Source: Burkholderiales bacterium
Lineage (GTDB): Bacteria > Pseudomonadota > Gammaproteobacteria > Burkholderiales > Casimicrobiaceae
Direction: 5' to 3'
NCBI GenBank assembly: GCA_025354165.1
Contig: JANXNI010000089.1
Span: 1-46,959 of the forward strand
Length of the DNA: 46,959 nucleotides
The translations under genes and the position numbers were made by a program. Below the pieces are notes generated by a model, which saw only the letters and a program-made list of their open reading frames with translations, had not been told where the DNA came from and searched no databases. Numbering within the stretch: the first letter of the stretch is position 1; each line of letters begins with the position of its first letter. Positions 222 to 46,856 of the stretch are shown in pieces.

Positions 222-341
222 TATCAGCTTTGTGATGAAAGCCTTATTTCATAGGGGCTAGAACGATAAAAAAACTTTTATCGACTTAAAGCATTTTGCG
301 CTTCCAGCCCCAGTGCAGTCTTGATTTCCTTAAAAAGCCAA
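222..341. repeat. ERIC-like intergenic palindrome, copy A
   Basis: This is one of seven related elements. The left arm begins TATCAGCTTTGTGATGAAAG and runs to CATAGGGGCTAG. The right arm has AGCCCC, which pairs with GGGGCT, and ends in AAAAAGCC. The centre carries TTATCGACTT, the reverse complement of the family core AAGTCGATAA. It lies between the tRNA terminator and the stop codon of the minus-strand CDF gene, ending about 16 bases from that stop. Confidence 0.75.
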
Positions 342-356
342 TGACAACACTGACGC

Positions 357-1337
357 TCAGGAAGTCCGAGCCTCATCACCCGCAGCGCTCGCCACCACCG
401 CCCCATGATCCAGATCCGGCCGCTTCCACGGATCCACATGGGTCATCAGGTTCAGCACGCGGTGCCGCTGCATCACGCGTCGCCGCGCCTCCACCGCAAT
501 GTCGTGCCCGGCCTCCACCGTCAGCGTCGCGTCCACCTCAATGTGCGCGTCGGCCACGATCATGTCGCCCATCTTGCGCGTCCGGATGTCGTGCACGTTC
601 TTCACGCCCGGCGTGTCCGCCACGGTCTTGCGAATCGCCGCCGCCTCTTCCTCGTTCACCGCGCGATCCATCAAATCGTGCAGCGCGTCCCAGCCAAAGC
701 CCCAGCCCATCTTCGCCACCATAAAGCCCACAATCAGCGCCGCAATCGGGTCCAGGATCGGATAGCCCAGCAAATTGCCGACGATGCCCACCGACACCAC
801 CAGGCTGGAGGCCGCGTCCGAGCGCGCATGCCACGCGTTCGCCACCAGCATGCTCGACTTCACGCGCTTCGCCACCTTCAGCATGTAGCGGAACAACAAC
901 TCCTTCGCCACCAGCGCGCCCAGCGCCACATACAGCGCCACCACATGTACCTGCGCAATCGCCGACGGGTTCTCAAGCTTCACCGCCGCCGACCACAACA
1001 TCCCCACGCCCACCGCCAGCAAAATCACGCCCAGCGCCAGCGAAGCCGCCGTCTCAAAGCGCTGATGCCCATACGGATGATCCTCGTCCGCGTCCTTCTG
1101 GCTCGCGTGGTTCGCCAGCAGCACCACAAAATCCGCCACCAGATCCGACAGCGAATGAATGCCATCCGCAATCAGCCCCTGCGACTTCGACATCACGCCC
1201 ACCACGATCTGCGCCGTAGACAACACCACATTCACCACCACGCTCACCCACGTCGAACGCGACGCCGCAGACGAGCGCTCAGCCGCCGAGATCGGCGAAT
1301 CGTCTTCGTTTTCTTCTTTGATGTCGGAGAAGGGCAT
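357..1337 (-). CDS. Cation diffusion facilitator (CDF) family transporter
   Basis: A 326-residue inner-membrane protein that should export divalent metal ions (Zn, Fe, Co or Cd) in exchange for protons. Six hydrophobic segments lie in the first 220 residues. The metal-site motif HSLSD is in the second membrane helix and HARSD in the fifth, as in YiiP/FieF-type CDF proteins. A cytoplasmic ferredoxin-like domain follows (about residues 225-310), with the conserved stretch VHDIRTRKMGDMIVADAHIE. An acidic N-terminal tail and a short Ala-rich C-terminal extension are the only additions. It starts at an ATG and is a single gene facing copy A of the repeat. Metal specificity cannot be read from sequence alone. 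Confidence 0.9.
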   Translation of the reverse strand: MPFSDIKEENEDDSPISAAERSSAASRSTWVSVVVNVVLSTAQIVVGVMSKSQGLIADGIHSLSDLVADFVVLLANHASQKDADEDHPYGHQRFETAASLALGVILLAVGVGMLWSAAVKLENPSAIAQVHVVALYVALGALVAKELLFRYMLKVAKRVKSSMLVANAWHARSDAASSLVVSVGIVGNLLGYPILDPIAALIVGFMVAKMGWGFGWDALHDLMDRAVNEEEAAAIRKTVADTPGVKNVHDIRTRKMGDMIVADAHIEVDATLTVEAGHDIAVEARRRVMQRHRVLNLMTHVDPWKRPDLDHGAVVASAAGDEARTS

Positions 1338-1457
1338 GGGCGGATTTGTATGTGGGTTTCGTTGCGGCGCAATGATAGGCCGCGTAGGTTAGTCGGGGCT
1401 GTTTAGTCGTTGCCTACCAATCGTGATCGTTACGAGTTCACGTCGGCACCGCCACAT

Positions 1458-1589
1458 TCAACTCCGCCGCCCGCTGAGCAGCGACGCTACCAATTCATCT
1501 TCGCTAAGCTGCTCACGGTGGCTCACCCCCGCACGCTCTGAAAGCTGCGCCTGCGAAAGCCCGCACGCTTCGCGAGCGATGCGAATTGA
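1458..1589 (-). pseudogene. Remnant of an XRE-type helix-turn-helix regulator
   Basis: About 43 codons read SIRIAREACGLSQAQLSERA..., which matches the first helices of an XRE/Cro DNA-binding domain. The reading then runs out after GVSHREQL, before the rest of the domain. No plausible start codon or ribosome site lies close by. It may be the remains of an antitoxin regulator at the edge of the toxin-antitoxin cluster. The 395-base gap between the CDF gene and hipA shows nothing else. Confidence 0.4.
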
Positions 1590-1732
1590 GTAACAGAGGC
1601 GGAGTAAATACGTGATTCTGCGGAGGCGCAATGTTAGGTATGGCCACAATTACAAACGCGGTTGCGCCCTATCACGGCCAGAAGATCGCCACTCTCGCAT
1701 CAACTGGGCGGCACAGTTAAGGCAGGACCAAT

Positions 1733-3001
1733 TCACGCAGCAAACGCACTAGCCATCAACGCCTGTTCCGACGCCGGAATCCCTAGACTGCCCGCCACAC
1801 TCCGCCACTCGCTAACAGCCGAGCGCACATCACTCAACACACGCGCCGCACCCCCAGCCGACAACCCGTAATCCTTACACGCATCCATCGCGATGGACAC
1901 GTCACACGCGGTCTCTACCTCGTTAATCGCCAGCGACAATTCGCGCCGCTCAATCGACGGATTCATGTCGTATGCGGGCGATAGCCGGATGCCATCCGCA
2001 CCAATGAAAAACCCGTGATTACGCAGATGGTCGTCCGTGTTGTGAATCAGGATATTGAACACAACGCGACGGAACAACTGCTCGCAATCCGCGCGCGTAT
2101 CGGCCCCTCGCGATTGCAACAAATCCACCAGTTCAAGATAACTCGCACCGGCCTCACCGTCCACCCGCTGCGTCAATGTCATCGCGGAAACAAACGCAAG
2201 CCGACGGCCCGCTGCCGTGCGATCAAACCGCTGCACCAGAAACGTCGTGTACGGGCTATCCGGCAAGCGCAGCGGCCTCGCATGCGGCACCTTGATCCCC
2301 GCGCGCTCGGCCAGGCGATGCGCCACCAGTTCCCACGCGGCCACGTCCCGCGTGTCCTGTCGGCTCGGAAACTTGGCCATGCACAGTGCGCCCGCCTCGT
2401 CGCGAACCGACGCCTTGGGCCGCGCACCGCCCAGCGATGAGCCGGGCGCAAACAATTGCGACAACCAGTACTCGTAGTCGGGGTGCTCCTCGTCGTTCAC
2501 ATGCGCCTCAAAGTTGAGGCTCGCCGCCTGCAACTCGCGCAGCGACGCAATCGGAGGCGCAGCAAGTCGCGCATTGCTATCGATGAAAGGCCCGCCCGCC
2601 GCCGCCCGAAAGCGCAGCGCCCCAAGCCGCGTTTCATCATGCACGCCCAGCAGGTAATCCCACTCCGTCAAGCTACGCGGTCGCCGCCCGTCATGCCGCG
2701 CCCGCGTGCTCTCGCGCCGCTGCATCAGCACGCGCCCCCAGCGATCCGGCGACGAATCGAGAAATATCCCAAACGACGCCCGATCAGCCGCCGGATACTG
2801 CGGCCCCGACACCAAAGCAAGGTCAGGATCAAACGCAAACGCCGCCGCCCCTCGCAGCCACGAGCGGTCGTACTCAAACGAGAAAATCTCACCCGCACCG
2901 GACGACTGACAATGCAATTCGCCCATCACGGCGGGCTGGGCAGTGGCTGCAAGCTGCTCAAGCTCAACACACACCTGAACCGTCTTCATCAAAGCGGCCA
3001 T
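1733..3001 (-). CDS. hipA: HipA-family serine/threonine kinase toxin
   Basis: A 422-residue type II toxin. HipA kinases phosphorylate aminoacyl-tRNA synthetases (GltX in E. coli), which stalls translation and induces persistence. The phosphate-binding loop is GSSLGGARPK (187-196). The catalytic block HNTDDHLRNH is at 320-329 and the metal-binding PAYDMNP at 342-348. The N-terminal domain (about 1-150) includes SFGIFLDSSPDRWG, typical of the family. It starts at an ATG 5 bases after the hipB stop. The ribosome site AAGGAG lies inside the last codons of hipB, so the two are translationally coupled. All key residues are present, so it looks active. The exact substrate is unknown. Confidence 0.92.
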   Translation of the reverse strand: MAALMKTVQVCVELEQLAATAQPAVMGELHCQSSGAGEIFSFEYDRSWLRGAAAFAFDPDLALVSGPQYPAADRASFGIFLDSSPDRWGRVLMQRRESTRARHDGRRPRSLTEWDYLLGVHDETRLGALRFRAAAGGPFIDSNARLAAPPIASLRELQAASLNFEAHVNDEEHPDYEYWLSQLFAPGSSLGGARPKASVRDEAGALCMAKFPSRQDTRDVAAWELVAHRLAERAGIKVPHARPLRLPDSPYTTFLVQRFDRTAAGRRLAFVSAMTLTQRVDGEAGASYLELVDLLQSRGADTRADCEQLFRRVVFNILIHNTDDHLRNHGFFIGADGIRLSPAYDMNPSIERRELSLAINEVETACDVSIAMDACKDYGLSAGGAARVLSDVRSAVSEWRSVAGSLGIPASEQALMASAFAA

Positions 3002-3006
3002 GCGCG

Positions 3007-3390
3007 CTACTCCTTCTCCCGTTCGCGAGACAGGGCTGGGGTGAGGGCGTCGTCGCTCACCACCGCAATCGACTCAGCAATCTTCTTCGAAGAGCGCCGC
3101 TGCGTCGGCAACGCCGCATCCTGCAATTTTCGCCCAAGCAAATCATCCGCCGCCAGCGTCGCCAAATCCTGCTCCAGCCGCAACACCTGCATCACCCGCG
3201 CATAAATGCCCAGCGCCACCGCCGGGTCGCCCAGCTCAACGCGATACACAGTCTTCCGCGAAACGCCAGCGCGCTGGGCGACCATCTCAGCCGAATACTT
3301 TCGGCGCAGACGTGCAAGCTTCAGGTTGCTGCCGACGGTTTCCAGCAGGCGCGTGAGGCGGGGTAGAAGTGAGGGTGCGGCGCGCGACAT
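3007..3390 (-). CDS. hipB: HipB-like XRE antitoxin and autorepressor
   Basis: A 127-residue DNA-binding antitoxin partner of HipA. The XRE helix-turn-helix covers about residues 18-75 (LKLARLRRKYSAEMVAQRAG... then KTVYRVELGD). HipB proteins bind HipA and dimerise on palindromic operators to repress the operon. A strong palindrome with an 8-base spacer sits 27 bases upstream. The last 12 residues come from a REP-type repeat, so the protein is longer than classical HipB (88 residues). A flexible region (about 90-115) connects domain and tail. The ATG start is the only good choice. Confidence 0.88.
   Translation of the reverse strand: MSRAAPSLLPRLTRLLETVGSNLKLARLRRKYSAEMVAQRAGVSRKTVYRVELGDPAVALGIYARVMQVLRLEQDLATLAADDLLGRKLQDAALPTQRRSSKKIAESIAVVSDDALTPALSREREKE
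3011..3047. repeat. GGGAGAGGG-type REP absorbed into the hipB 3' end
   Basis: The sequence matches the inverted-repeat family at 13190-13307, 20147-20193 and 21169-21213 (CTCTCCC...GGGAGAG followed by GGGGTGAGGG). Read on the minus strand it encodes LTPALSREREKE, the last residues of HipB, and also supplies the hipA ribosome site. Confidence 0.7.
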
Positions 3391-3416
3391 ATGCGTCGCA
3401 TTTTACTCAAATATAT

Positions 3417-3448
3417 GCATTTATGTGTAATTTGTGACACATAGATGC
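3417..3448. promoter_or_regulatory. Palindromic operator upstream of hipBA
   Basis: The sequence reads GCAT-2-ATGTGT-8-ACACAT-2-ATGC, a perfect inverted repeat with symmetric 2-base gaps and an 8-base centre. The 8-base spacer matches the TATCC-N8-GGATA layout of the E. coli HipB operator, though the half-sites differ. It is the likely HipB autoregulatory site. Binding is inferred, not shown. Confidence 0.7.
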
Positions 3449-3518
3449 TAAATTCAGCTTTTGCGACGTAGCACATTCCTGGTTGCGAAACGTGAGAGGG
3501 CACATTAAGAAATTTTCC

Positions 3519-3755
3519 CTACGTGGTCACTGACAAGCTCCGCTGCACTTGTCGCAGTACCGATGCCGCGTGTTCCCGGGTAACACCGGGAAACAGTTCT
3601 AAAAATTCGTCGACAGTCACGCCAGCGCGAAGGTTCTCAAACAACGATGCAACTGGCACGCGCGTGCCCACGAACACCCATGCTCCGCTGACTTTCTCAG
3701 GATTTCGCTCAACGGCGTCGCAATCGTCCCAGTGAATGTTTTGCGTCTTCAACAC
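3519..3755 (-). CDS. DUF433 domain protein, probable antitoxin-like partner
   Basis: A 78-residue protein. DUF433 proteins carry a small winged-helix-like fold and usually accompany PIN-like DUF5615 toxins. Visible motifs are the VFVGTRVPVASLFENL stretch (about 27-42) and DEFLELFPGVTREHAASVL (about 49-67). The start is a GTG that shares its G with the TAG stop of the DUF3883 gene (TAGTG), so translation should be coupled. No DUF5615 gene lies beside it; the partner here is the nuclease-like protein upstream. Its role as antitoxin or adaptor is inferred from the family only. Confidence 0.8.
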   Translation of the reverse strand: MLKTQNIHWDDCDAVERNPEKVSGAWVFVGTRVPVASLFENLRAGVTVDEFLELFPGVTREHAASVLRQVQRSLSVTT

Positions 3756-4588
3756 TAGCCAAAGCTCGCGCGATAAGTGATTGGATCAAGCTCACAGTGC
3801 TGGCTTAGCGCGCCGCTCAGTTCAAAGAGTCGCGGCGACTGACGAAATTCGAATAAGCGATAAAGCCGGAACTGGTCTTTTGCTTCGTGTGAAAGAGCCA
3901 ACTCGCTTTTTGTAACGAAAAACGGCGTTTCACGCGCAAAGGACGTTGTCTTGACTTCTATGAGGCGTTCACGCCCATCGGCCTCGAATGACAAGATGTC
4001 ATAGCCAAGCCCGTCGCCCTTGCTCTGCGAGACATGATCAACCCGATCTGCCAGTTTGGACAGACCAAGCTGATTCAATCTCCAATGTTCGAACTGAACA
4101 ACAAATTGTTCGCCAGCGAGTCCTAAGGACCGATTGTGAGCCTCCCGCTCGAGATAGTCTCTTTTGACGGCTCGACGTAAATAGGTTGCTTGTGCTTCCG
4201 CTGCGCGATGCTGCCTAGTCGGCGGTGACGTTTTAACGCTAGAAAACTCCGTCTGAATTGGGGCAACGGCTGGCTGTTGCACCGCAGACAAAGCGGCCTG
4301 ATCGAGCGACGGCTTCGATCCGATTCGTTCCTCCGCAACTTCAGCTAGCAAGCGCTGGTAATTTCCGCGAGGCTGGTAGCCGCGAATGCTTGGGAAACCA
4401 AGGTCAATCATCACCGCACTGATATTGCAATGCTTGAACTCTACTGAGCCTTCAGAGCGTTGCAGTAACTTCGTTCGCAATTGTCGACGGTGTTCCGCCT
4501 TGCTGTACTTTTGACCGGAAAGTTCGAGCGTAAGCATCAGCAGATAGTCCGCAACAATCGCTTCAACCTCCTCGCGAGTCCAATCCAT
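3755..4588 (-). CDS. DUF3883 domain protein with PD-(D/E)XK nuclease-like core
   Basis: A 277-residue protein. The N-terminal domain (1-90) has MLTLELSGQKYSKAEHRR and KHCNISAVMIDLG, a module often fused to nucleases in mobile and defence genes. A low-complexity linker (about 95-130) follows. The DUF3883 domain (about 155-245) shows the nuclease-type residues: E160 in GLAGEQFV, D197 in GYDI, and E211-V-K213 in LIEVKTT. I chose the ATG at 4588 because the 50 residues upstream in frame look non-coding. The gene is coupled to the DUF433 gene and lies in a toxin-antitoxin cluster. DNA cleavage or restriction is a reasonable guess, not shown. Confidence 0.8.
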   Translation of the reverse strand: MDWTREEVEAIVADYLLMLTLELSGQKYSKAEHRRQLRTKLLQRSEGSVEFKHCNISAVMIDLGFPSIRGYQPRGNYQRLLAEVAEERIGSKPSLDQAALSAVQQPAVAPIQTEFSSVKTSPPTRQHRAAEAQATYLRRAVKRDYLEREAHNRSLGLAGEQFVVQFEHWRLNQLGLSKLADRVDHVSQSKGDGLGYDILSFEADGRERLIEVKTTSFARETPFFVTKSELALSHEAKDQFRLYRLFEFRQSPRLFELSGALSQHCELDPITYRASFG

Positions 4589-4791
4589 AACTGCTTGACG
4601 CCTGCAATACCGTTTGTGTGGGAAGCCTACCCTATTCTGCAACGGCGAAAACTCACGGAGTACCAAAACCCACCTAACAAACCCTCCGTAGGCCGGTGAA
4701 GTGTGTGTGTGATTGATCTGCCCCCGCGACCCTAACAAGACATCTTCCGAGAGCCCGGTTCTCGCTCCCGTCTTCCGAACGATGACCTCCG

Positions 4792-5199
4792 CTACAAAAC
4801 CACCACCCCCGCTTCCTTCGCCGCCCGCTGCAACGCCTTGTCAAGCGTCGCGAGCGGCAGTGCTTTGCGTAGCGCGAGTTCGAGGTAACAGGTGTCGTAG
4901 CTGGTGAGACCGTAACGCACGGCAAGTTGCAGCAGGCTGTCCCACGCGCGGCGGCTGCCTTCGAGGTCGATCTGCACGGGCAGCGCCGCAATACGTTGGG
5001 CGGCAACGTTTGCGGCAGCGGGGCTGATCCGGTTGCGCCGCGCTGCGCCGATCAGCACATTGGTGACTTCCAGCGGCCAGATCGACGGGGCCTCGGCACC
5101 CTCGGCGACCAGCTTGTCGAGCAGGGTGTCGGTCGCCGCGGTCCTCTCGTCCTCGAAGCACCACGCCATCGTGACGGAGCAGTCCAGCACAAAGCTCAT
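4792..5199 (-). CDS. vapC: VapC-family PIN-domain ribonuclease toxin
   Basis: A 135-residue PIN domain covering the whole protein. The four acidic residues that bind Mg/Mn in VapC toxins are visible: D6 (VLDCS), E44 (PLEVTN), D102 (SYDTCYLELA) and D120 (ATLDKAL). VapC enzymes cut tRNA or rRNA when the antitoxin is degraded. The ATG start overlaps the antitoxin stop by 4 bases (ATGA), a standard arrangement. The catalytic set is intact. The 203-base gap beyond it, towards the DUF3883 gene, shows nothing recognisable. Confidence 0.92.
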   Translation of the reverse strand: MSFVLDCSVTMAWCFEDERTAATDTLLDKLVAEGAEAPSIWPLEVTNVLIGAARRNRISPAAANVAAQRIAALPVQIDLEGSRRAWDSLLQLAVRYGLTSYDTCYLELALRKALPLATLDKALQRAAKEAGVVVL

Positions 5200-5453: not shown

Positions 5454-5475
5454 GACGTGACCCGACCTAATTTTA

Positions 5476-5494: not shown

Positions 5495-5571
5495 GGCTGA
5501 TTTGGGCTGGTTGACACTTTGCATCGCGCATCTCGCGGGTGCGTTTACAAAAAAAATACTGAGAATTGCTA

Positions 5572-7546: not shown

Positions 7547-7556
7547 GTGATTGCCG

Positions 7557-7646: not shown

Positions 7647-8651
7647 CTACGCAGCAATCCCCGCCAACAACTCATAACTCCGCAGCCGCGCCGCATGGTC
7701 ATGCACGGCGCCTGCAATGATGAGTTCATCGGCTTGCGTTTGCGCGATGATTGCTTCGAGTTTGGTGTGAACGGATGCTGGCGAGCCGACGGCGGTGACG
7801 GTAAGCATTTGTTCCATGCCTGCGCGTTCCGATTGCGATCCGAGCGCGTTCATTTCAGCGACGGAGATCGGTTTGGGCAGCGGGCCGCGTTTGCCCGTTT
7901 GCATGCCGAGGAATCGTTGCTGGAGCGAGGTGAACAGATGCGCGGCCTGGTCGTCGCTGTCGGCGACGACGACGTTCACGGCGACCATCGCGTAGGGCTG
8001 GGTCAGCGCGCCCTCGCTGCCGTTTGGCTTGAAGCGGGCGCGATAAATCTCTAGCGCCTGCATGAGCATGGCGGGCGCGAAGTGCGAGGCGAACGCGAAC
8101 GGCAGGCCCAGGTGTGCCGACACTTGCGCGCTGTACAGGCTCGATCCGAGCAGCCAGATCGGCACGTCGCAACCGATGCCGGGGATGGCGCGCACAGGGC
8201 GGCGCTGATCGGGCGGCGGTTTGAAATACTCGGCGAGCTCGATGACGTCGCCGATGAAATCGTCTTCGGTTTGCGTGGCGAGCGTGCGGCGCAGCGCGCG
8301 CATGGTCATCTGGTCGGTGCCCGGCGCGCGGCCGAGGCCCAAGTCGATGCGGCCCGGATACAGTGTGGCGAGCGTGCCGAACTGTTCGGCGATGACGAGC
8401 GGCGCGTGGTTCGGCAGCATGACGCCGCCGGACCCGACGCGGATGCTCTTCGTGCCCGCCGCGAGGTAGCCGATGAGCACTGACGTGGCGGAGCTGGCCA
8501 CGCCGTCCATGTTGTGATGCTCGGCGACCCAGTAGCGGTTGTAGCCGAGCTTTTCGGCGTGTTGCGCAAGGTCGAGCGAATTTTTCAGCGCCTCGGCGGC
8601 GTTGCTGCCTTCAACGATGGGGGCGAGGTCGAGGACGGAAAGGGGAATCAT
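7647..8651 (-). CDS. Luciferase-like (LLM class) flavin-dependent oxidoreductase
   Basis: A 334-residue cytoplasmic TIM-barrel enzyme related to E. coli YhbW. LLM enzymes use FMNH2 or F420 to oxidise substrates; the substrate here is unknown. Motifs: [10 protein letters not shown] at the start, YWVAEHHNM (about 41-49), [15 protein letters not shown] (about 72-86) and [17 protein letters not shown] (about 99-115), all typical of the MsnO8/YhbW group. I chose the ATG at 8651; a TTG two codons earlier (8657) is also open. It is a lone gene. Copy B of the palindromic repeat starts 16 bases upstream of the start codon. Confidence 0.9.
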
Positions 8652-8666: not shown

Positions 8667-8786
8667 TATAGCTTTTGGCTGAAACGGCGGTTACTTTGGG
8701 GCAAGGTGAGTAAAACGACTAAAGTTGACTTTAAAGGTTATTCGCTGCTATCCCAAATGAAGTAACGGATTCAGCGAAAAGCTGTA
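8667..8786. repeat. ERIC-like intergenic palindrome, copy B
   Basis: This is the best-paired copy. Left arm AGCTTTTGGCTGAA pairs with right arm TTCAGCGAAAAGCT, and GTTACTT with AAGTAAC. The centre reads AAAGTTGACTTT, one base from the family core. It lies between two minus-strand genes: the LLM gene start and the Lrp gene stop. Confidence 0.8.
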
Positions 8787-13154: not shown

Positions 13155-13189
13155 CGCTGCTCCCTATTTCGTGGAGCAAACAGTTCTGT

Positions 13190-13307
13190 CCCCTCTCCCC
13201 TTGCGGGAGAGGGTTAGGGTGAGGGGTTGGTGGCGGTACATCAACCCTAATTCGCCTATCCACAGTCACCCTCTCCTCAACCGTCTCCTCTCAAGGGAGA
13301 GAGAGCC
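13190..13307. repeat. Inverted pair of GGGAGAGGG-type REPs
   Basis: The first unit (13190-13232) reads CCCTCTCCCC..GGGAGAGGG then TTAGGGTGAGGGG. A second unit (13266-13307) lies in the opposite orientation, CACCCTCTCC...AAGGGAGAGAG. The paired layout is like a REPIN. Together they fill most of the 161-base gap before the dehydrogenase gene and form part of its upstream leader. Confidence 0.75.
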
Positions 13308-16040: not shown

Positions 16041-16164
16041 TGCAGCATATTTGCGCTGTAATGACTGCTGCTCATGGCCTGTAGCTGAATTATCGTAAAA
16101 GTCGACTATTCATCGAATGGGCTGCTAGCCCCAATAAAACAACGCTTCTTAGAAAAAGCTGTTA
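16041..16164. repeat. ERIC-like intergenic palindrome, copy C
   Basis: The right arm GCTAGCCCCAATAAAAC...AGAAAAAGCTGTTA is close to copy G, and the core AAAAGTCGACTATT is intact. The left arm is degenerate. The terminal TTA of the element is the TAA stop codon of dut, read on the minus strand. Confidence 0.7.
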
Positions 16165-20116: not shown

Positions 20117-20146
20117 CGGGTTATTTTAGGGCTCGACCCCAAATCA

Positions 20147-20193
20147 GTCCCCTTGCTCCCTGTGGGAGAGGGTTAGGGTGAGGGGTTGGTGGG
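20147..20193. repeat. GGGAGAGGG-type REP, single unit
   Basis: GGGAGAGGGTTAGGGTGAGG is the same as in the 13190 unit, with CCCCTTGCTCCC as the opposite arm. It sits 31 bases upstream of glrK. Confidence 0.75.
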
Positions 20194-21128: not shown

Positions 21129-21168
21129 GTGTCACGAAGCGTGGCACCTGTAGTACGCGGACGCCACC

Positions 21169-21213
21169 GTCACCCTGGCCCTACCCCTCTGCCCTCAAGG
21201 GAGAGGGGACTGA
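21169..21213. repeat. GGGAGAGGG-type REP, single unit
   Basis: The element reads CACCCTGGCCCTACCCCTCT then CAAGGGAGAGGGGA, the reverse orientation of the copy at 20147. It lies in the gap between the lipoprotein gene and amn. Confidence 0.7.
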
Positions 21214-21250
21214 AAGGCGGTTCGCGTGCACTGCGAGCTGGATTCTCGCC

Positions 21251-22853: not shown

Positions 22854-24269
22854 ATGAAGCAAATATCGACTATTGACACGCCCAAAGCGGCTCACGAGGC
22901 GGGCTTTTCGGCGCTCCCACTTTCCGCCGCGATGCTCGCGAATCTGGATCGGCTCGGCTATCACACGATGACGCTGATTCAGGCCGCCAGCCTGCCCGTC
23001 GCGCTGATCGGCAAAGATCTGATCGCGCAGGCGAAAACCGGCAGCGGCAAAACGGCCGCGTTCGCGATTCCGCTGCTGGCGAAAATTGACGCAGCGCGCT
23101 TCGACGTGCAGGCGCTTGTGCTCTGCCCGACGCGCGAGCTGGCCGAGCAGGTCACGCAAGAGCTGCGCCGCCTCGCGCGCGCCGAAGACAACATCAAAAT
23201 TTTGACGCTGGCGGGCGGTGTCATGATGCGCGGACAGCGCACGAGCCTTGAGCACGGGGCGCATATTGCCGTCGGTACGCCGGGGCGCATCATGGATTTG
23301 CTGGATCGCGGCAATCTTGATTTGAGCGCAGTGAATACGCTGGTGCTCGACGAGGCGGATCGTATGCTCGACATGGGTTTTTACGATGACATCGCGTACG
23401 TGGCAAAGAAGGTGCCGACCGAGCGGCAAACGCTGTTGTTCTCCGCGACTTATCCCGAAGGCATCGCCAAACTCGCCGCGCAATTCCTGAAAAGTCCACA
23501 ACGCATTACGGTGCAGGCGCAGCACGAGAGCGACAAGATCCGCCAGCGTTTTTACGAGATTGAAGACAGCGAACGACTGATCGCCGTGACCAAACTGCTG
23601 AATCACTATCGCCCGATCAGCACGCTCGCGTTTTGCAATACCAAACAGCGCTGCAAAGATTTGGTGACGCTGTTGCAGGCGAGCGGTTTCAGCGCGCAGG
23701 CGTTGCACGGCGAGCTTGAGCAACGTGATCGCGATCAGGTGCTGGTGCAATTCGCCAATCGCAGCTGTTCGGTGCTCGTGGCGACGGACGTTGCCGCGCG
23801 TGGCCTAGACATTGCGCAGTTAGAGGCCGTGATCAATGTGGACGTGACGCAGGAGCCCGAGCTGCACATTCATCGCATCGGTCGCACCGGTCGTGGCGAA
23901 CATGAAGGCTGGGCGCTGAGTCTGGCGAGCCCGAAAGAAATGTTGCGCGTGACCAATATTGAGGACGAGCAGGGCCGTCCGATGGAATGGCACGATCTGG
24001 CGTCGCTCAAACCCGCGAGCGACGAGCCGCTGGTGCCGCCGATGGCGACGCTGCAATTGCAGATCGAGCGCAAAGAAAAAATTCGTGCGGGCGACGTGCT
24101 GGGCGCACTCACCGGCGACGGCGGTATCGCGGGCGACAAAGTCGGCAAGATTTCGATTGCCGCGTTTTCGACCTACGTTGCGGTCAGCCGCGATGTCGCG
24201 AAAGCCGCGCTTGCCCGCCTGCAAGCGGGCAAGATCAAGGGAAAAACGGTACGGGTGCGATTGTTGTAG
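22854..24269 (+). CDS. dbpA: ATP-dependent RNA helicase DbpA
   Basis: A 471-residue DEAD-box helicase that remodels 23S rRNA near hairpin 92 in late 50S assembly. Motif Q is FSALPLSAAM...YHTMTLIQ. Motif I is AKTGSGKT, Ia PTRELAEQ, Ib TPGR, II DEAD, III SAT, V RGLDIAQ and VI HRIGRTGR. The C-terminal RNA-binding domain (about 400-471) includes IRAGDVLGALTGDGGIAGDKVGKISI, the DbpA signature that separates it from RhlE or SrmB. The start is the ATG at 22854. Confidence 0.95.
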   Translation: MKQISTIDTPKAAHEAGFSALPLSAAMLANLDRLGYHTMTLIQAASLPVALIGKDLIAQAKTGSGKTAAFAIPLLAKIDAARFDVQALVLCPTRELAEQVTQELRRLARAEDNIKILTLAGGVMMRGQRTSLEHGAHIAVGTPGRIMDLLDRGNLDLSAVNTLVLDEADRMLDMGFYDDIAYVAKKVPTERQTLLFSATYPEGIAKLAAQFLKSPQRITVQAQHESDKIRQRFYEIEDSERLIAVTKLLNHYRPISTLAFCNTKQRCKDLVTLLQASGFSAQALHGELEQRDRDQVLVQFANRSCSVLVATDVAARGLDIAQLEAVINVDVTQEPELHIHRIGRTGRGEHEGWALSLASPKEMLRVTNIEDEQGRPMEWHDLASLKPASDEPLVPPMATLQLQIERKEKIRAGDVLGALTGDGGIAGDKVGKISIAAFSTYVAVSRDVAKAALARLQAGKIKGKTVRVRLL

Positions 24270-24326: not shown

Positions 24327-24450
24327 TTACAGCTTGTTGCTGAAAGCACTGCTGCATGCGGGCTGAAGCCAATTTATGGCATAAGTCGATAATTATTGTT
24401 TTAATGCATTAACCCAAGTGAATTGGACGTTTCAGCTAAAAAGCTGTTAT
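24327..24450. repeat. ERIC-like intergenic palindrome, copy D
   Basis: Left arm ACAGCTTGTTGCTGAAAGC and right arm TTTCAGCTAAAAAGCTGT pair. The core is ATAAGTCGATAATT. It lies between convergent dbpA and the FMN-protein gene, ending 17 bases from the latter's stop. Confidence 0.8.
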
Positions 24451-29954: not shown

Positions 29955-30084
29955 AACAACAACTTTTCGATGAAACGTCTATTTCACTAGGGCAGAGACA
30001 TGATATGATAGAAAGTCGACTTTATATTAAAACATCAGCTAGCCCATGAACAGACGTCGTTTTAGCAAAAAGCCATATGCGTTA
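29955..30084. repeat. ERIC-like intergenic palindrome, copy E
   Basis: Left arm AACTTTTCGATGAAACGTCT pairs with right arm AGACGTCGTTTTAGCAAAAA; CTAGGGC pairs with AGCTAGCCC. The core is AAAGTCGACTTT, fully palindromic. It lies between DUF418 and selU, 55 bases from the selU stop. Confidence 0.8.
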
Positions 30085-40812: not shown

Positions 40813-40933
40813 ATCAACTTTTCTCTGAAACGCCCATTTAATAGGGGCTAACGCAGCATTTAGCCACAAGTCGATAACGAACAAAACGCGTTATCAGCCC
40901 TTATAGAAATGCCGTTGCATTGAAAAGCTGATA
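40813..40933. repeat. ERIC-like intergenic palindrome, copy F
   Basis: Left arm CAACTTTTCTCTGAAACG and AATAGGGGCTAA pair with TTATCAGCCC and GAAAAGCTGATAT. The core is CAAGTCGATAAC. It lies between the convergent dehydrogenase and S41 genes, ending 8 bases from the latter's stop. Confidence 0.85.
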
Positions 40934-40940
40934 TAAAAAA

Positions 40941-42260
40941 TTACTTCAGTAACGCCGTTTGAGCCGCTTCCAGCGCGCGATCTCGCTGCTCAACAAAATC
41001 AGCGCGTTTGCGCTCAACGGCGATATCGGGAATCACGCCGTGTCCTTCGATACGCCCGCCTTTGGCGTTGGTAAATCCGATTTCGCTAAACGCGAGTTCA
41101 CCGCCGCCCGGCAGCGCTGCGTAGCCCAAAAAGGCGAGCAAACACCCGCAGGAAACTTCGCCAACGACGATGGCGCGACCGGTTGATTGCAACGCACCCG
41201 CCGTGGCCTCAGACGCACTAGCGCTGTCGGCGTCCACGAGAACGGCGAGCTTGCCCGCGTAGGCGTCCGGCTTACCCGGAACGATAGCTTCGGGGGACGC
41301 AATTTTGACGAGACCGAACGCGAGTGTCACCGGTTTTCCGGTGCGTGTTTCGGTGCGTCCGATGACGGTCTTTGTCTTCAGGAAACTGCCGACGATGGCT
41401 TCTGCCATCGCGCCCGAGCCACCGCCGTTGCCGCGCAAGTCGAGCACCAGCGCGGGCGTGTCTTTCAAGGCATCGATAGCGCTCAATACGCTGCTGCGCA
41501 ATGATTCCTGAAACGAGGTGAAACGCACGTAGCCAATGCCCGAAGGCAGCACGCGGCTGGTCACAATCGGTCGTGTCGATAGCGTTTTCGGTCGTAGCCG
41601 CACGTCGAATTCGCTGCCGTCGACGCGTGCGAACGACAGCCCGAATGTTGCGCTAAGGGACTCACGAGCCGCCTCATTGGCGACCACGTTCAATCGGCGC
41701 AATGGCATGCGGAGCGCCGCTTGCGGCGACGACGTTTTGCGCGCGGCCTGCGCCCAGATTTGCCACTGCGTTTGCGCCTCTTTGCCATCGATACGCAGCA
41801 GACGCATTCCGGCACGCGCGCCCGACCAGTACGCGTCGGATTCAGGATGCACCGACAACACGACGAGCGCGCCATCAATCAGTCGGATATTGAGCCCGAG
41901 CGATAGCACCTGCTGCTCTTTTCGCTGCGCAACGGCTTTCGGCGATTCCACGCGCGTATGCACGTCGGCAAGCTCGCCCGCCATCTGATCCAGTCGCTCC
42001 CAGAACTCATCGTCGGTCGCGGCCGACAGCGCCAGAGGCTGCCATTTTTCTCGTGCTGCGCGCCAGTCCACGCCGTTCAAATCAGCGCGGTAATAGTGAT
42101 CGTTGACAGTGCTCCACACCGCATCAATCGCGGCCTTGCGCACGGCGGGCGTCGCGCCGGTACTTTGTTCGAATGACGAAACCGGCACATGGCGCCCGAT
42201 GATGTTGTATGGATCGATGCTGGCGCAGCCGCCGACGACGAGCGCCGTGGCCACCAACAT
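40941..42260 (-). CDS. S41-family peptidase-like lipoprotein
   Basis: A 439-residue protein. Starting from the ATG at 42260, the lipobox is VVGGC (Cys12). A tail-specific protease domain (about 280-420) has LVLDLRGNGGG and DADSASASEATAGAL with the catalytic Ser. The usual GK with the catalytic Lys appears as SCGCLLAF, so K is replaced and activity is doubtful. A PDZ-like region (about 130-190) precedes it. An ATG at 42332 is a longer choice, but it includes a REP and overlaps no better ribosome site. Confidence 0.8.
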   Translation of the reverse strand: MLVATALVVGGCASIDPYNIIGRHVPVSSFEQSTGATPAVRKAAIDAVWSTVNDHYYRADLNGVDWRAAREKWQPLALSAATDDEFWERLDQMAGELADVHTRVESPKAVAQRKEQQVLSLGLNIRLIDGALVVLSVHPESDAYWSGARAGMRLLRIDGKEAQTQWQIWAQAARKTSSPQAALRMPLRRLNVVANEAARESLSATFGLSFARVDGSEFDVRLRPKTLSTRPIVTSRVLPSGIGYVRFTSFQESLRSSVLSAIDALKDTPALVLDLRGNGGGSGAMAEAIVGSFLKTKTVIGRTETRTGKPVTLAFGLVKIASPEAIVPGKPDAYAGKLAVLVDADSASASEATAGALQSTGRAIVVGEVSCGCLLAFLGYAALPGGGELAFSEIGFTNAKGGRIEGHGVIPDIAVERKRADFVEQRDRALEAAQTALLK

Positions 42261-42273
42261 GAGCGCTGCACTA

Positions 42274-42294
42274 TCGCGGTGAAACCGCTCCCAC
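42274..42294. repeat. Single arm of the GTGGGAGCGG REP
   Basis: TCGCGGTGAAACCGCTCCC is the same arm as at 9504, with a TA-to-GA change. It falls between the upstream gene's stop and the preferred S41 start. Confidence 0.75.
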
Positions 42295-42315
42295 AACTTA
42301 AGTAAAACTGTCACA

Positions 42316-42669
42316 TCAACGCCGCGCGTCATCCTCATCATCGTAGCGCCGCGTGGTGATGGCGATTTTTGGTGCGTATGCCGTGGCCAGCGCGCGAATA
42401 AAGGTGAGCTTGCCGGCGATGACTTCGGACACCGCCTTGACACCGTCTTCGCTCACCACTTTGTCGACTACGGCCTTCTCAAAGCGTTCGCGGAGATCGG
42501 GCGCTACGTTGGCGCGAATGCGCCCCATGACAAAGGATTCGGCGTCATCGATGCTGGCGAATGACTTGGCGACGGGCATGCCTAGTGGCGAGCCCTCAAT
42601 GATCACCAGTCGATTGGAATCGCTCTCGTCCTGATGTTCCTGACGGTTCTTATCTGGCGCTTGTGACAA
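42316..42669 (-). CDS. Hypothetical protein
   Basis: A 117-residue soluble protein that I do not recognise. The N-terminal 20 residues are charged and disordered; the rest has two probable helices around IDDAESFVMGRIRANVAPDLRERFEKAVVDKVV and a basic C-terminus ending DDEDDARR. The start is TTG at 42669 with a near-perfect GGAGGT 6 bases upstream, the best ribosome site in the region. It precedes the S41 lipoprotein gene by 55 bases on the same strand. Confidence 0.65.
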   Translation of the reverse strand: MSQAPDKNRQEHQDESDSNRLVIIEGSPLGMPVAKSFASIDDAESFVMGRIRANVAPDLRERFEKAVVDKVVSEDGVKAVSEVIAGKLTFIRALATAYAPKIAITTRRYDDEDDARR

Positions 42670-42841
42670 GGATTACCTCCGGTTCGTCTGTGCCCGCAGC
42701 GTCCGGTCGAACGCTTCAGCGGTTCATGCAATTGAGCCACGTACGGCGCTTGCATTTGCGACCTATCATAGCGATATTGCGTGTATGCGGTGACGTCCTC
42801 CTAGCGGCGGTCACGCTTCACACCACCGGGAGAAATAAAAA

Positions 42842-43210
42842 ATGTCTGATGTCATCAACGTACCTAACCCACCGAATGCACCGAGCGATGGGCAACCGAG
42901 CGAAGCCACGATCCAGATCACGCACATCACCTATGCACTCTATGCGCTTGGGATGGTGACCGGCATCTTCGCCATTGCCGGGCTCATCGTGGCCTACATC
43001 AAGCGTGATGACGCGGTCGGCAGCTACCTCAGCTCCCACTACTCATGGCTGATCCGCACCTTCTGGTGGGGACTCCTGTGGACGACCATCGGCATCATTC
43101 TGGCCATCGTGGCAATTGGATTCGTTGTGCTCGCCGTGGTCTGGATCTGGTGGGTTTACCGCATCATCAAGGGCTGGCTGCGCCTGACCGAGAAGCGGGA
43201 AATCGCGTAA
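42842..43210 (+). CDS. DUF4870-like small membrane protein
   Basis: A 122-residue protein with three hydrophobic segments: ITYALYALGMVTGIFAIAGLIVAYI, WLIRTFWWGLLWTTIGIILAIVAIG, and FVVLAVVWIWWVYRIIKG. The pattern YIKRDDAVGSYLSSHYSWLIRTFWW is typical of DUF4870. A purine-rich GGGAGAAA lies 6 bases before the ATG. It is divergent from the TTG-start hypothetical gene and convergent with dacB. Function unknown. Confidence 0.8.
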   Translation: MSDVINVPNPPNAPSDGQPSEATIQITHITYALYALGMVTGIFAIAGLIVAYIKRDDAVGSYLSSHYSWLIRTFWWGLLWTTIGIILAIVAIGFVVLAVVWIWWVYRIIKGWLRLTEKREIA

Positions 43211-43231
43211 CCCGTTCGGGCGAGAAAGTTC

Positions 43232-44698
43232 CTAGTTTGACTTCGCGGGCTCAAGCTGCGGAGCCTTTGACGGAACCTGCGACTGCGTTTGATAAACCCA
43301 ATCCACCGCAGCGTCGAGCGCCCGTTGTCCGGCCTCGGCGTTGCCGTGATTGATCATGCCCACAAAAATCATCTTGCGATCACCAGGCAACAGCAGATAG
43401 CCCGCGAGCGCTTTGACGCCCGTGAGCGTGCCGGTTTTCAGGTACGCCGAACCGTCGGCCTGATGATTGATGAAGCGGTTGACCAGTGTGCCGTCGGTCG
43501 CCGCGAGCGGTAGCGATGACACAAAATCGCTTGAAAATGGCGCGGTCAGGCCGTATTCGAGAAGCTTGGCCATACTTTGCGCCGACACCCGTTCGTTGCG
43601 CGACAACCCCGAGCCGTTCTCGATCACTACATCGGAAATATCAAAACCGCGGCTCTTGGCCCATTCACGTATGCTGCGCCCAGCGCGTTTGGCCACGGCG
43701 GGCCGTTTGCTGAGTTCGGCGTCAATCGTGAGCAGCAGCTGCCGTGCCATCACGTTGTTGCTGAATTTATTGATGTCGGTCACCATCGAGGCGAGCGGTG
43801 CCGAGGTGTGGGTGTAGAGCACGCGCGCGTTCTTCGGCGTCGCCCCGTCTTTCATGATGCCTGTCCAGGTGCCGCCCGCGTCGCGCCACATGCGCGCAAA
43901 GGTGCCCGCGATCAAGCCGTTGTGATCGAACAGGCTCACATACCAGGCGCGATCCGCGCAATCACGCGGGTAAGTGCCGGTGAAGCTTGCCGAGGCCCGG
44001 TTGCCATCGTTCGTAAATACGGGCGTTACCAGCGACCGCCAGTCGCCACAATTGCCGCCGGTCGCACGCAAGCGGTTGGTCAGCGCCAGTCCGTCCGGGG
44101 GCGGGCCGTCAGTCGTGACTGTGACCGAATTGTCCGGTTGCGGCACAAATCGAAAGCCGACCGCCTGAAAGTTGAACAGCAAGGCATCGGGGCTGACGTT
44201 GTACGGCTTGAGCGCCTGACCGTCGAACTGGCCGGGGTCATAGTCAACGCTCGCGAATCGCGAGCGATCCAGCAAAATATCCCCGGCAATCTCGCGAATC
44301 CCGCGATCCCGCAGCGCCTTGATCGCGGTCTGCAAATGATCCGCGACGAACTTCGGGTCCCCGCTGCCATGCAGGTAGAGCGGGCCTTGCAGCACGCCGG
44401 CCTCAACCCGCGCTGTCGTGGAAAACGTCGTTTTCCAGGTGTAATTAGGCGTCAATACATCGAGCCCAACGAGCGTCGTCAATATCTTCATGGTTGACGC
44501 GGGATTCATTGGCACCGTGCTGCGATGTGCGATCAATGGCTCGACCTGGCCGACCTCGCGAACGTAAATGCTGACCGCGTTCATCGGAACGCCGACCTCG
44601 CGCATCGCCTTGGTGACCGGGTCGGGCAACGCGGCGTCAGCCGTCAATGTGGAAAGCAAAGCCGCGACGCTCGCCGCAACTACAGTGATTCTGGACAT
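43232..44698 (-). CDS. dacB: D-alanyl-D-alanine carboxypeptidase/endopeptidase (PBP4)
   Basis: A 488-residue class C penicillin-binding protein that trims or cuts peptidoglycan crosslinks in the periplasm. A signal peptide covers 1-22 (MSRITVVAASVAALLSTLTADA). The active-site motifs are SxxK as STMK (S68-K71), SxN as SNN (about 317) and KTG (about 427). The large insertion between the first two is standard for PBP4. ATG start; divergent from marR. Confidence 0.95.
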   Translation of the reverse strand: MSRITVVAASVAALLSTLTADAALPDPVTKAMREVGVPMNAVSIYVREVGQVEPLIAHRSTVPMNPASTMKILTTLVGLDVLTPNYTWKTTFSTTARVEAGVLQGPLYLHGSGDPKFVADHLQTAIKALRDRGIREIAGDILLDRSRFASVDYDPGQFDGQALKPYNVSPDALLFNFQAVGFRFVPQPDNSVTVTTDGPPPDGLALTNRLRATGGNCGDWRSLVTPVFTNDGNRASASFTGTYPRDCADRAWYVSLFDHNGLIAGTFARMWRDAGGTWTGIMKDGATPKNARVLYTHTSAPLASMVTDINKFSNNVMARQLLLTIDAELSKRPAVAKRAGRSIREWAKSRGFDISDVVIENGSGLSRNERVSAQSMAKLLEYGLTAPFSSDFVSSLPLAATDGTLVNRFINHQADGSAYLKTGTLTGVKALAGYLLLPGDRKMIFVGMINHGNAEAGQRALDAAVDWVYQTQSQVPSKAPQLEPAKSN

Positions 44699-44737
44699 GC
44701 TGAAATTATCGGTTACCCGAAGCCGCGAGTGGGCGTC

Positions 44738-44776
44738 TTGCTCCAGATCATATTAATTGTTCTAATACGAACCAAT
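44738..44776 (+). promoter_or_regulatory. Promoter and candidate MarR operator
   Basis: TTGCTC (44738-44743) and TCTAAT (44761-44766) form a -35/-10 pair with 17-base spacing. The imperfect inverted repeat ATTGTTC-6-GAACCAAT overlaps the -10. It is a candidate autoregulatory site. The inferred transcription start is close to the ATG. Confidence 0.4.
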
Positions 44777-45224
44777 GAATTCCGGCGTCACGATTCCCAC
44801 CTTCATGCCCACGCTGCGGCAATTGATTCGCTGCACTCAGGCGTTCGAGCGCTTTTCCGGCGCGCACGTCAAAAAAATGGGTTTGACCGAATCGCAATTC
44901 GACGTCATCGCCACGCTTGGCAACACCAGCGGCATGACCTGCAAAGAATTGGGCGAACGCACGCTGATCACCAAGGGCACGTTGACCGGCGTGCTTGATC
45001 GCATGGAAGCGCGCGGACTCGTCTCGCGCAAACCCGATGCCGACGACGCCCGGCGCACGCACATTGCGTTAACGCGCAAAGGTGCGGTGCTGTTTGACGA
45101 GGCTTTTCCAGCGCATATGCGGCATTTGCAGCGAGTGTTTGACCGCATTCCTCCGGTGGAACTTGTTTCGCTGCACAACCATCTAGGCGATTTGCGTCTG
45201 GCATTTGAAGAGACTTCGGCATGA
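44775..45224 (+). CDS. MarR-family transcriptional regulator
   Basis: A 149-residue winged-helix repressor. The DNA-recognition segment is about 47-95 (TSGMTCKELGERTLITKGTLTGVLDRMEARGLVSRK), followed by the wing RKPDADDARRTHIALTRKG. Helices at both ends form the dimer. The ATG at 44775 may give little leader; a second ATG at 44805 is possible. It overlaps the cytochrome b gene by 4 bases (ATGA) and so is in the same operon, an unusual partner for a cytochrome. Confidence 0.9.
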   Translation: MNSGVTIPTFMPTLRQLIRCTQAFERFSGAHVKKMGLTESQFDVIATLGNTSGMTCKELGERTLITKGTLTGVLDRMEARGLVSRKPDADDARRTHIALTRKGAVLFDEAFPAHMRHLQRVFDRIPPVELVSLHNHLGDLRLAFEETSA

Positions 45225-45925
45225 CAAAACCCGCGACTGACTTAGTGTCTGCGCCCGTCTGGGACGCTTTCGTGCGCTGTTTTCACTGGACTCTGGTCAC
45301 CTTGTTTACGATTTCGGTGGTTAGTGGCGAGGTCGGCGGCGAATGGATCGCTTGGCACATGCGAAGCGGCTACGCCATCCTCGCGCTCGTCGTGTTCCGT
45401 CTGATCTGGGGATTTGTTGGCGGCGAATACGCGCGCTTCACCTCATTCCTGACGGGGCCGGTTCGCAGCTTCAAATTCGCCAAAGGCCTGCTCGGCAAGA
45501 GCCACCAACCTGTGATCGGCCACAACCCGGTCGGCGGCTGGATGGTCGTGGTGCTGCTCGTGTTGCTGGCAACCCAAGCCGTGCTCGGCCTGTTCAGCAA
45601 CGACGAAATCGCCACCACCGGGCCGCTGGCGCGGTACGTGTCGGAAGAAACCTCGCTCACGCTCATGAGCCGTCACCGCACCATTGGCGACGTGCTCCTG
45701 ATCCTCGTCGGCGTACACATTGCGGCGGTACTCTTTCATGTTTTCGTGAAAAAGGACGGCATCCTTCGCGCCATGTTTAGCGGCCGCAAAGCGCTGCCGC
45801 CGACCCTTGCCAGCGAAGCCAGCTCTGCGCGCAAAGCCTCGCATCCGCTCGGTTTCGTCGTTTTGTCCATCGCCATTGCCGCTGTCGTCATCGCCGTCAA
45901 CTGGCCCGCGTTATTCAAGTCCTGA
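45221..45925 (+). CDS. Cytochrome b561-type membrane protein
   Basis: A 234-residue di-haem cytochrome b of the Ni/Fe-hydrogenase/cytochrome b561 type. Four or five membrane helices. Candidate haem ligands: H22 (CFHWTLV), H46 (WHMRSGY), a His in SRHRTIGD and one in VGVHIAAVLFH. It may feed electrons from quinones to the cytochrome c' encoded next. It overlaps marR (ATGA) and ends 47 bases before cytochrome c'. Confidence 0.88.
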   Translation: MTKPATDLVSAPVWDAFVRCFHWTLVTLFTISVVSGEVGGEWIAWHMRSGYAILALVVFRLIWGFVGGEYARFTSFLTGPVRSFKFAKGLLGKSHQPVIGHNPVGGWMVVVLLVLLATQAVLGLFSNDEIATTGPLARYVSEETSLTLMSRHRTIGDVLLILVGVHIAAVLFHVFVKKDGILRAMFSGRKALPPTLASEASSARKASHPLGFVVLSIAIAAVVIAVNWPALFKS

Positions 45926-45972
45926 TTTGTTTGTTCCTGTCTAATCTGTCATCGTTTCTTAATGGAGTACCT

Positions 45973-46425
45973 ATGAAAAATTTCACCAAAATCGCCATCG
46001 CGACCGCCGCCATCGCCGTCGCCACATCCGCGCTAGCGCAGCCGAAGCCGGAAGCGTTCGTCAAGCATCGTAAAGCCGCGCTCACGCTCATGGGCTGGTA
46101 CTTCGGCTCAATGGGCCCTGTGGCCAAAGGCGAAAAGGCGTTCAACAAAGACGAGCTCACCAAGACAACCGCACTCGTGGCCACGATGGCCAAACTGCCA
46201 TTCGACAGCTTTGTTGCGGGCACCGAAAACATCGGCAACACCGAGGCGCTTCCAGCCGTCTGGAGCAACAACGCGAAATTTAAAGAGCTGGCCACCAAGT
46301 TAGGCGTAGAAACCGACAAACTCGCTGCCGTTGCCGCAGCGGGCGATGCTGACGGCTTTAAAAAGCAGTTCGGCGTAGTCGGCGGCACCTGCAAAGCCTG
46401 TCACGACGACTTCCGCAAGAAGTAA
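45973..46425 (+). CDS. Class II cytochrome c (cytochrome c')
   Basis: A 150-residue periplasmic protein. The signal peptide is about 1-22 (ALA-Q). The haem motif CKACH is near the C-terminus (C140, C143, H144) as in the four-helix cytochrome c' fold. These proteins bind NO and carry electrons. I chose the ATG at 45973, preceded by GGAG with 5-base spacing, over an in-frame extension of 14 residues. Confidence 0.93.
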   Translation: MKNFTKIAIATAAIAVATSALAQPKPEAFVKHRKAALTLMGWYFGSMGPVAKGEKAFNKDELTKTTALVATMAKLPFDSFVAGTENIGNTEALPAVWSNNAKFKELATKLGVETDKLAAVAAAGDADGFKKQFGVVGGTCKACHDDFRKK

Positions 46426-46452
46426 CCACGTCGGGGCCTGAACCCACCTTGA

Positions 46453-46478
46453 AACGCCCGCTTTTGCGGGCGTTTTTG
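46453..46478 (+). terminator. Rho-independent terminator of the cytochrome operon
   Basis: AACGCCCGC-TTTT-GCGGGCGTT followed by TTTTG is a long hairpin with a U-tract, 28 bases after the cytochrome c' stop. Confidence 0.9.
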
Positions 46479-46559
46479 TTTGCGCAGCGCAGATCGTCAT
46501 GCGAACAACGAGACCGCCGCTCGCCGGGCGGGCACTGCGCGCCTCGTGCGCTACCGTGA

Positions 46560-46581
46560 AGCGCCGGTTTTTTGCGGCGCT
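46560..46581. other. Perfect hairpin AGCGCCG/CGGCGCT
   Basis: A 7-bp stem with an 8-base T-rich loop, not followed by a T-run. Purpose unknown. No gene is seen from 46479 to the next repeat. Confidence 0.4.
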
Positions 46582-46733
46582 ATCCCATTTCCAAATCAAT
46601 ACTGACCTTGTCGTCATCGCCTTGCCATACTCCCGCGCCGTCTATGGATCCGCATCGCGTCATGATTGATTTAGAAAAGGAATGAGTAGGCCGGAGCGCT
46701 GAAACCGACCCACTCAAAACTTGGCGCGAAACC

Positions 46734-46856
46734 ATCAGCTTTTGGCTAAAAGCACCGCTGCATAGGGGCTAGAGGCTGGATTGACCATTTGTTGATAAAT
46801 GGCGATTTGGCGTGCTAGCCCCCACAAAACCAGCGATTCCGCTGAAAGCCGCTAAT
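46734..46856. repeat. ERIC-like intergenic palindrome, copy G
   Basis: Left arm ATCAGCTTTTGGCTAAAAGC and CATAGGGGCTAG pair with CTAGCCCC and GCTGAAAGCCGCTAAT. The core is TTGTTGATAAAT. It shares the 12-mer CATAGGGGCTAG with copy A. Confidence 0.85.

Follow-up and report, generated by a model that had tools for sequence, protein, structure and literature searches.

The window analysed here, 46,959 bp long, is the complete contig C10 (JANXNI010000089.1) of a Burkholderiales bacterium of the family Casimicrobiaceae (G000, a 4.72 Mb genome in 97 contigs). The RpoH of G000 shares 98% identity with that of a Burkholderiales metagenome-assembled genome, 339R_metabat_247. The window carries seven copies of an intergenic 120-bp element that belongs to a genus-wide family, which is real, is absent from the catalogues that we searched and departs in its behaviour from the usual classes of bacterial repeat. 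Copies are numerous (as extrapolated from part of the genome), symmetric about a dyad and constrained in length; their arms are not kept complementary, they are under selection in place, they occupy preferred positions around genes and they are spaced more evenly than expected by chance. On balance we lean towards reading the element, from its sequence, as a docking site for a putative DNA-binding protein that is kept by selection and probably has an architectural function. Dispersed intergenic palindromes of bacteria are usually classed as mobile debris or RNA hairpins. For this element, the data contradict the hairpin reading; they reveal selection in place and, in two species, evenly spaced copies. 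The original prediction for this DNA had described a seven-copy intergenic palindrome family; what goes beyond it is the strict length of the element, its even spacing, its bias towards convergent gene pairs and the 3' ends of genes, and its conservation in place.

A dyad of fixed length

Position i of the element faces position 121-i about a centre with the sequence GTCGAC. Each half is composed of the blocks CAGCTTTT, TGAAA, GGGGCTA and a four-base A/T block, with GTCGAC at the dyad, so that the consensus reads ATCAGCTTTTnGCTGAAAgcaccgctgcATaGGGGCTA - free - WWWW - free - WWGTCGAcWW, followed by its mirror image. The arm and inner blocks had been named correctly in the original prediction as common to the copies, and are here arranged as a dyad. 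CTTT, GGG and the TC at the dyad are near-invariant, positions 47-48 and 56-57 are A or T only, and positions 39-45 and 50-53 are essentially free. The arm consensus shifts between species and the A/T profile stays alike, with a correlation of 0.94 between G000 and a third species, G005.

The halves scored best at exactly 60 bp apart in 89 of 100 elements of G000 and in 50 of 54 from the first sample of the sister species, G001; a three-block scan gave the same separation for 88 of 101 G000 elements. Halves in G005 are 60 or 61 bp, both being long in 24 elements, neither in 13 and one in 18; by eye, the base that varies directly follows the GGGCT block (alignment A3). Copies in the window, previously put at 120-130 bp, were refined to units of 120 bp, with one of 121 bp.

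Absence of base pairing and conservation in place

Watson-Crick pairing between the arms was 0.583 as compared with 0.582 after permutation in 129 copies, taken from 139 copies that had no length change between halves and a score above 60, and was also near expectation in a second set (26 of 36 copies). A weak excess was found solely at positions 39-53 (0.368 versus 0.346, z 2.3). RNAalifold retained three pairs, none with a compensatory change. Among 155 copies, the top 25 column couplings all joined positions 1-3 bp apart and none crossed the dyad, a pattern that is expected for DNA recognition and not for base pairing. These results of no excess arm pairing and no cross-dyad coupling indicate that selection is therefore not for a hairpin. 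The short hairpin within the arm (CAGC/GCTG), of the repetitive extragenic palindromic (REP) type, was ruled out since it had no covariation in the same 155 copies. Thus the palindrome of the original prediction is a dyad of the consensus whose base pairing is not maintained within copies.

The genomes of G000 and G001 are strongly diverged, identity being 81.6% over aligned DNA and, over 5,948 four-fold sites, 58.6%. Presence and absence at orthologous places had been suggested as a check, and an element was present at the corresponding G001 place for 16 of the 24 G000 elements with alignable flanks, several of these comparisons resting on a single flank and duplicate pairs having been removed before counting. 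In the 16 ortholog pairs, 579 of 704 constrained positions were identical (0.822) as compared with 344 of 768 free positions (0.448; Wilcoxon P 2e-4), the two classes being taken from G005 in replacement of a seven-pair test with classes derived from G000. Non-orthologous pairs had identities of 0.764 and 0.354, respectively. The free positions thus retain residual orthology, and the copies therefore descend in place. Constrained positions evolve at about one-fifth of the free rate (Jukes-Cantor), and these sequence comparisons indicate purifying selection on the elements in place. Some single sites are also occupied in other genomes: eight of the 17 searched have an element upstream of rpoH, the match being weak in three of them (G003, G013, G015) and the other five being G000, G001, G005, G012 and G014, the element of copy 2 is also found at the matching place in G001, and G001, G005, G006 and G012 have matches downstream of the same gene as copy 6.

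Placement and spacing

Gene calls were made with a crude codon-usage script, for which gene starts are approximate. Coding sequence makes up 85-87% of the DNA, yet none of 78 elements had its midpoint within a gene, which upholds the intergenic location first noted for the seven copies; some elements run a few bases into the end of a gene. Elements were present in 25 of the 101 convergent gene pairs, against 38 of 452 for tandem pairs and 12 of 104 for divergent ones (chi-square P 1.8e-5), and within tandem pairs the element was nearer to the 3' end in 28 of 38 cases (hand tally, P 0.005).

Spacing in G000 (n=74) had a mean of 9.9 kb and a coefficient of variation (CV) of 0.61, a lower value than in any of 5,000 simulations with elements placed at random within these intergenic gaps (mean 0.97, minimum 0.68), and only five spacings were shorter than 3 kb when 17.7 were expected. 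A similar pattern was observed for G005, where 55 elements in 680 kb had a mean spacing of 12.5 kb and a CV of 0.61, under all 20,000 uniform placements (mean 0.98). That the elements are evenly spaced and also favour convergent pairs and the 3' ends of genes suggests a role at the level of the whole chromosome, for example as anchors or boundaries.

Copy number and taxonomic range

We built a sequence model without base pairs (R1) from 30 copies out of 36, the window contributing six. Excluded were two near-duplicates of copy 7 (L002, L003), two copies with degenerate right halves (L006, L021) and two with a poor fit (copy 3 of the window and L027). R1 recovered all seven window copies with E-values of 3.7e-14 to 3.1e-23 on the better strand of each. 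A 120-position weight matrix gave 29 hits on contig C72 (361,871 bp); scores on this contig were bimodal in an ungapped scan, with none at 5-45 bits and the 29 higher, and the best score in random sequence matched for length and dinucleotide content was about -23 to -26 bits. Chance similarity was rejected on the basis of these two analyses.

All of the 150 candidates scored, from 1,501 first-look candidates in a whole-genome scan of G000 with R1, had E-values below 1e-15, many places being counted twice, once per strand. Four contigs of G000 (783,595 bp) contained 79 elements, which extrapolates to about 475 per genome, or about 490 (also extrapolated) when half copies and copies with other indels are included; a half-site scan of the four contigs found few lone halves. 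The expectation of hundreds of copies is thus borne out, at about 475-490 per 4.7-Mb genome by extrapolation from 783.6 kb, and model searches of the genome and its relatives, which had been put forward as a check, found far more than seven.

R1 detected the family in 15 of 16 genus genomes besides G000, and in none of 23 genomes from outside the genus. With a multi-species model (R2), 16 of 17 genus genomes (G000 included) gave matches and 47 other genomes of the family gave none; among 300 genomes drawn from the order, six of the seven genus members matched and none of the remaining 293 did. Searches across more than 40 genomes used stricter filters, under which weak relatives may be missed, and the match numbers per genome are lower bounds and not copy counts. 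G009 carries the element (23 of 56 scored candidates match). In a two-protein tree, G016, the genus member with no R2 match, branches nearest to the outgroups and G009 next, a position that fits either gain of the element near the base of the genus or loss in G016.

The original description of the family as not known agrees with the catalogues searched. At the copies, no Rfam match exceeded the gathering score, and a permissive Rfam search of six element loci gave none that reached that score and none that overlapped the elements. Copy 7, the only copy used as query, had no match in plasmids or phages, and none at E<=1 in an E. coli collection (20,395 records) by distant-mode BLAST; one exact IUPAC pattern had no match in viral contigs. 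Listings of the literature searched, in which few subscription papers were accessible, showed neither the family nor an evenly spaced, selected 120-bp dyad.

A putative docking site

On the reading that we favour, the element is a DNA-level dyad docking site composed of two 60-61-bp halves placed head to head, in which a putative oligomeric sequence-specific DNA-binding protein, or protein pair, would read several blocks per half. Selection keeps the set in intergenic DNA, with one element in about 10-12 kb and most of them at the 3' ends of genes; the elements probably act as evenly dispersed architectural anchors or chromosome boundaries. The family probably first spread near the base of the genus by transposition or copying and was domesticated afterwards. 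More tentatively, and with a little less than even confidence, the set may form a genus-specific landmark system of about 475 sites that are over-evenly spaced, under purifying selection and read by a putative protein whose specificity drifts between species. A general parallel is provided by chromosome-organising sites such as parS and matS, which are dispersed, maintained by selection and each recognised as DNA by a protein of their own; these sites are short and are not known to be spread evenly across the whole chromosome.

Several points weigh against a docking site with an architectural role. Protein binding, the dedication of that protein to the element and the chromosome-organising role are all things that we infer, and a function in chromosome architecture is our best-supported guess, not a demonstration. 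The element holds about 87 bits of information in G000 and about 75 bits in G005, far beyond the approximately 14 bits needed to locate 475 sites, and this could reflect descent from a copying element. For eight of the 24 testable sites, the corresponding place in G001 lacks an element, so turnover is real, and the free positions of orthologs (45% identity) are more diverged than four-fold sites (59%), such that some copies may have been replaced. For spacing, the null for G005 was uniform placement and not placement in gaps, and the fragmented contigs of G001 gave a CV of 0.74 (n=60) as a descriptive value. G016, despite belonging to the genus, has no element match. Finally, the A/T content of the element is most strongly periodic at 9.35 bp and has little power at 10.2-10.8 bp, because of which helical wrapping is unsupported.

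If the landmark system exists, bacteria would have in it a counterpart to dispersed insulator or architectural elements. The question of whether bacterial chromosomes contain sequence-defined, evenly dispersed organising elements becomes directly testable with this family. The shifting consensus suggests that similar systems may have been missed elsewhere, because each lineage would own a motif unrecognisable from the others.

Alternative explanations

The strongest rival to a docking site is a replicator with target immunity. In this explanation, the family would be a selfish or semi-selfish element akin to REPINs or to miniature inverted-repeat transposable elements (MITEs) and moved in trans by a transposase, for example a Y1 enzyme of the REP-associated tyrosine transposase (RAYT) type. 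Target immunity would then generate the even spacing, and a bias in insertion or survival would generate the intergenic placement at 3' ends. We consider such a replicator unlikely, and the same holds for this account of spacing and placement. The hundreds of dispersed symmetric copies, with a consensus shifted by species, are consistent with it, as is at least one case in which G000 and G001 differ by an element within a gap that aligns otherwise (G001 C156:30292). REPINs are inverted doublets with conserved ends and a constrained, fixed internal length that occur as hundreds of extragenic copies (PMC3116915), and the element resembles them in all of these respects. Y1_Tnp (PF01797) matches were present in 15 of 17 genus genomes, all of them among the 16 that bear elements, and were missing from the element-less G016. 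The odds of a REPIN- or MITE-like replicator are, however, slightly lowered because G009 carries element matches and no Y1_Tnp match. The two genomes that lack Y1_Tnp, G009 and G016, are both small (2.5-2.6 Mb).

Linkage between the element and Y1 genes was not observed at the two of 44 listed Y1 loci that were examined at the sequence level, neither of which has an element within about 0.5 kb. The sole Y1_Tnp match of G000 (G000:C58:14400-14648, locus L350) has a broken frame, and the 1,251 bp surrounding it contain no element. The Y1 gene on contig C10 of G001 (approximately 59400-60100, in L333) lies about 2.6 kb from the nearest element, the contig ending after about 0.5 kb on the other side. 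By eye, this RAYT-like gene follows a short GTAG-type palindrome, which might be its own REP, and is followed just downstream by a transposase-like reading frame. The exact word of the palindrome was absent from 783.6 kb of G000, 702.4 kb of G001 and 680 kb of G005.

Other properties of the copies also argue against a mobile element. No target-site duplication (TSD) of 2-9 bp was detected in 133 copies, direct-repeat identity being within about 0.04 of the permuted value at all lengths and at offsets of -3 to +3. Constrained positions are held in place across strong divergence. The arms have no pairing excess, whereas compensatory changes are described as common in REPINs (PMC3116915). Further differences from REPIN-RAYT systems are that the conserved blocks of the element reach its centre and that its ends have no covarying short hairpin. 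A decaying MITE as a full account was rejected on the basis of the in-place selection and the lack of TSDs.

The known repeat families compared here differ from the element in TSDs, hairpin maintenance or transposase linkage. The Correia/NEMIS, RUP, CIR and RPE repeats are about 100-200 bp, mostly inverted repeats and dispersed, and so share size, symmetry and dispersal with the element; most of the MITE-type repeats listed in one source (PMC2229807) have TSDs, TA ends and long stem-loop folding, but the element has neither TSDs nor a pairing constraint. The original prediction likened the build to that of the enterobacterial repetitive intergenic consensus (ERIC) and stated that the sequence differs. 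The difference in sequence is in line with the failure of copy 7, the sole query, to match E. coli genomes; kinship is not supported, no hairpin being maintained within copies and no TSD having been detected. ERIC has a length of 127 bp. Copies of ERIC, also called intergenic repeat units (IRUs), number 30 in E. coli K-12, 150 in Salmonella and 711 in Photorhabdus (PMC10969869), and the element is like them in length class, imperfect overall palindrome, intergenic location and copy numbers of tens to hundreds. It differs in that its halves are conserved as sequence with no excess of arm pairing, and we consider the resemblance to be superficial.

A second rival, which we think quite improbable, is that the elements are strong sites for DNA gyrase, in which about 130 bp would be bound symmetrically about a central cleavage site for the management of supercoiling. 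DNA gyrase is universal and the element family has been found in one genus only. The 120-bp dyad does agree in size and symmetry with the E. coli gyrase motif, which spans 130 bp and is symmetric about the cleavage site (PMC6379681, PMC12393610). Placement between convergent genes and at 3' ends and intervals of about 10 kb also favour gyrase. However, gyrase recognises a degenerate motif in which GC content recurs every 10.75 bp, whereas the element has a strongly base-specific consensus and low power at 10.2-10.8 bp. The 9.3-bp component of its A/T periodicity is significant, being reached by 0.25% of shuffles, and is the best period over the whole element (9.35 bp); with power low in the helical range, a gyrase-like wrapping is not claimed. 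The flanks have a best period of about 7.4 bp, not the 10.75 bp of the GC periodicity. For both 23S genes of G005, the first 5 kb downstream are free of elements (the nearest are at about 6.8 and 18.4 kb), which is contrary to a gyrase site and led us to reject an association with rRNA. Bacterial interspersed mosaic elements of type 2 (BIME-2) are intergenic, bound by gyrase and suggested to have a role in genome organisation (PMC6379681). The element is likewise intergenic and may share an organising role; it differs from these and other gyrase sites in being a single 120-bp dyad as opposed to a cluster of REPs, and in its period and sequence.

The least probable explanation, for which we see very little chance, is an RNA-level element, such as a terminator, a stabiliser of mRNA 3' ends or an RNase III/E processing site formed by a 120-nt hairpin: elements do favour gene 3' ends and, for three of the seven window copies, folding exceeds that of shuffled sequences (z -4.0 to -5.2), but the margin is small for the other four (z -0.9 to -2.5), the arms do not covary beyond the slight excess at positions 39-53, copies 2-4, the sole copies in the stretch scanned for terminators, have no terminator-like site, and terminators are not expected to be evenly spaced. 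An RNA hairpin or a cruciform as the selected feature was rejected for the mixed folding, the lack of covariation and arm pairing at expectation.

Copies and other features of the window

All seven copies first noted in the window are present, with ends that differ by 0 to 7 bp from those originally given. Their refined positions and surroundings are as follows.

Copy 1, 223-342, 120 bp: flanked by tRNA-Lys (18-93, + strand) and a cation-efflux gene (357-1337, - strand).
Copy 2, 8667-8786, 120 bp: immediately upstream of an LLM-class oxidoreductase gene (7647-8651, - strand).
Copy 3, 16044-16163, 120 bp: upstream of rpoH (- strand).
Copy 4, 24328-24448, 121 bp: between convergent dbpA (22854-24269, + strand) and a glutamate-synthase-like gene (- strand).
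Copy 5, 29958-30077, 120 bp: flanked by two - strand genes.
Copy 6, 40813-40932, 120 bp: between convergent genes for a 2-hydroxyacid dehydrogenase (+ strand) and an S41 peptidase (- strand).
Copy 7, 46734-46853, 120 bp: close to the contig end.

Copy 7 lies in a longer recent duplication (window 46734-46959) that is common to contigs C24 and C32. This copy and the similar copies on C32 and C24, whose flanking DNA is also shared, represent a recent segmental duplication and not independent insertions. Elsewhere in the genome, an element at G000:C4:28135 is located on a break in synteny between G000 and G001, its two flanks matching two different G001 contigs, and elements might therefore mark rearrangement breakpoints.

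The window also contains a second short repeat family (TCCCCTTGCGGGAGAGGGTTAGGGTGAGGGG-like) at 13184-13301, 20144-20192 and 21164-21214, in direct and inverted orientation, which is unrelated to the element. A HipA-like gene (1733-3001) and the small reading frame next to it (3007-3390), both on one strand, possibly form a HipBA-type pair.

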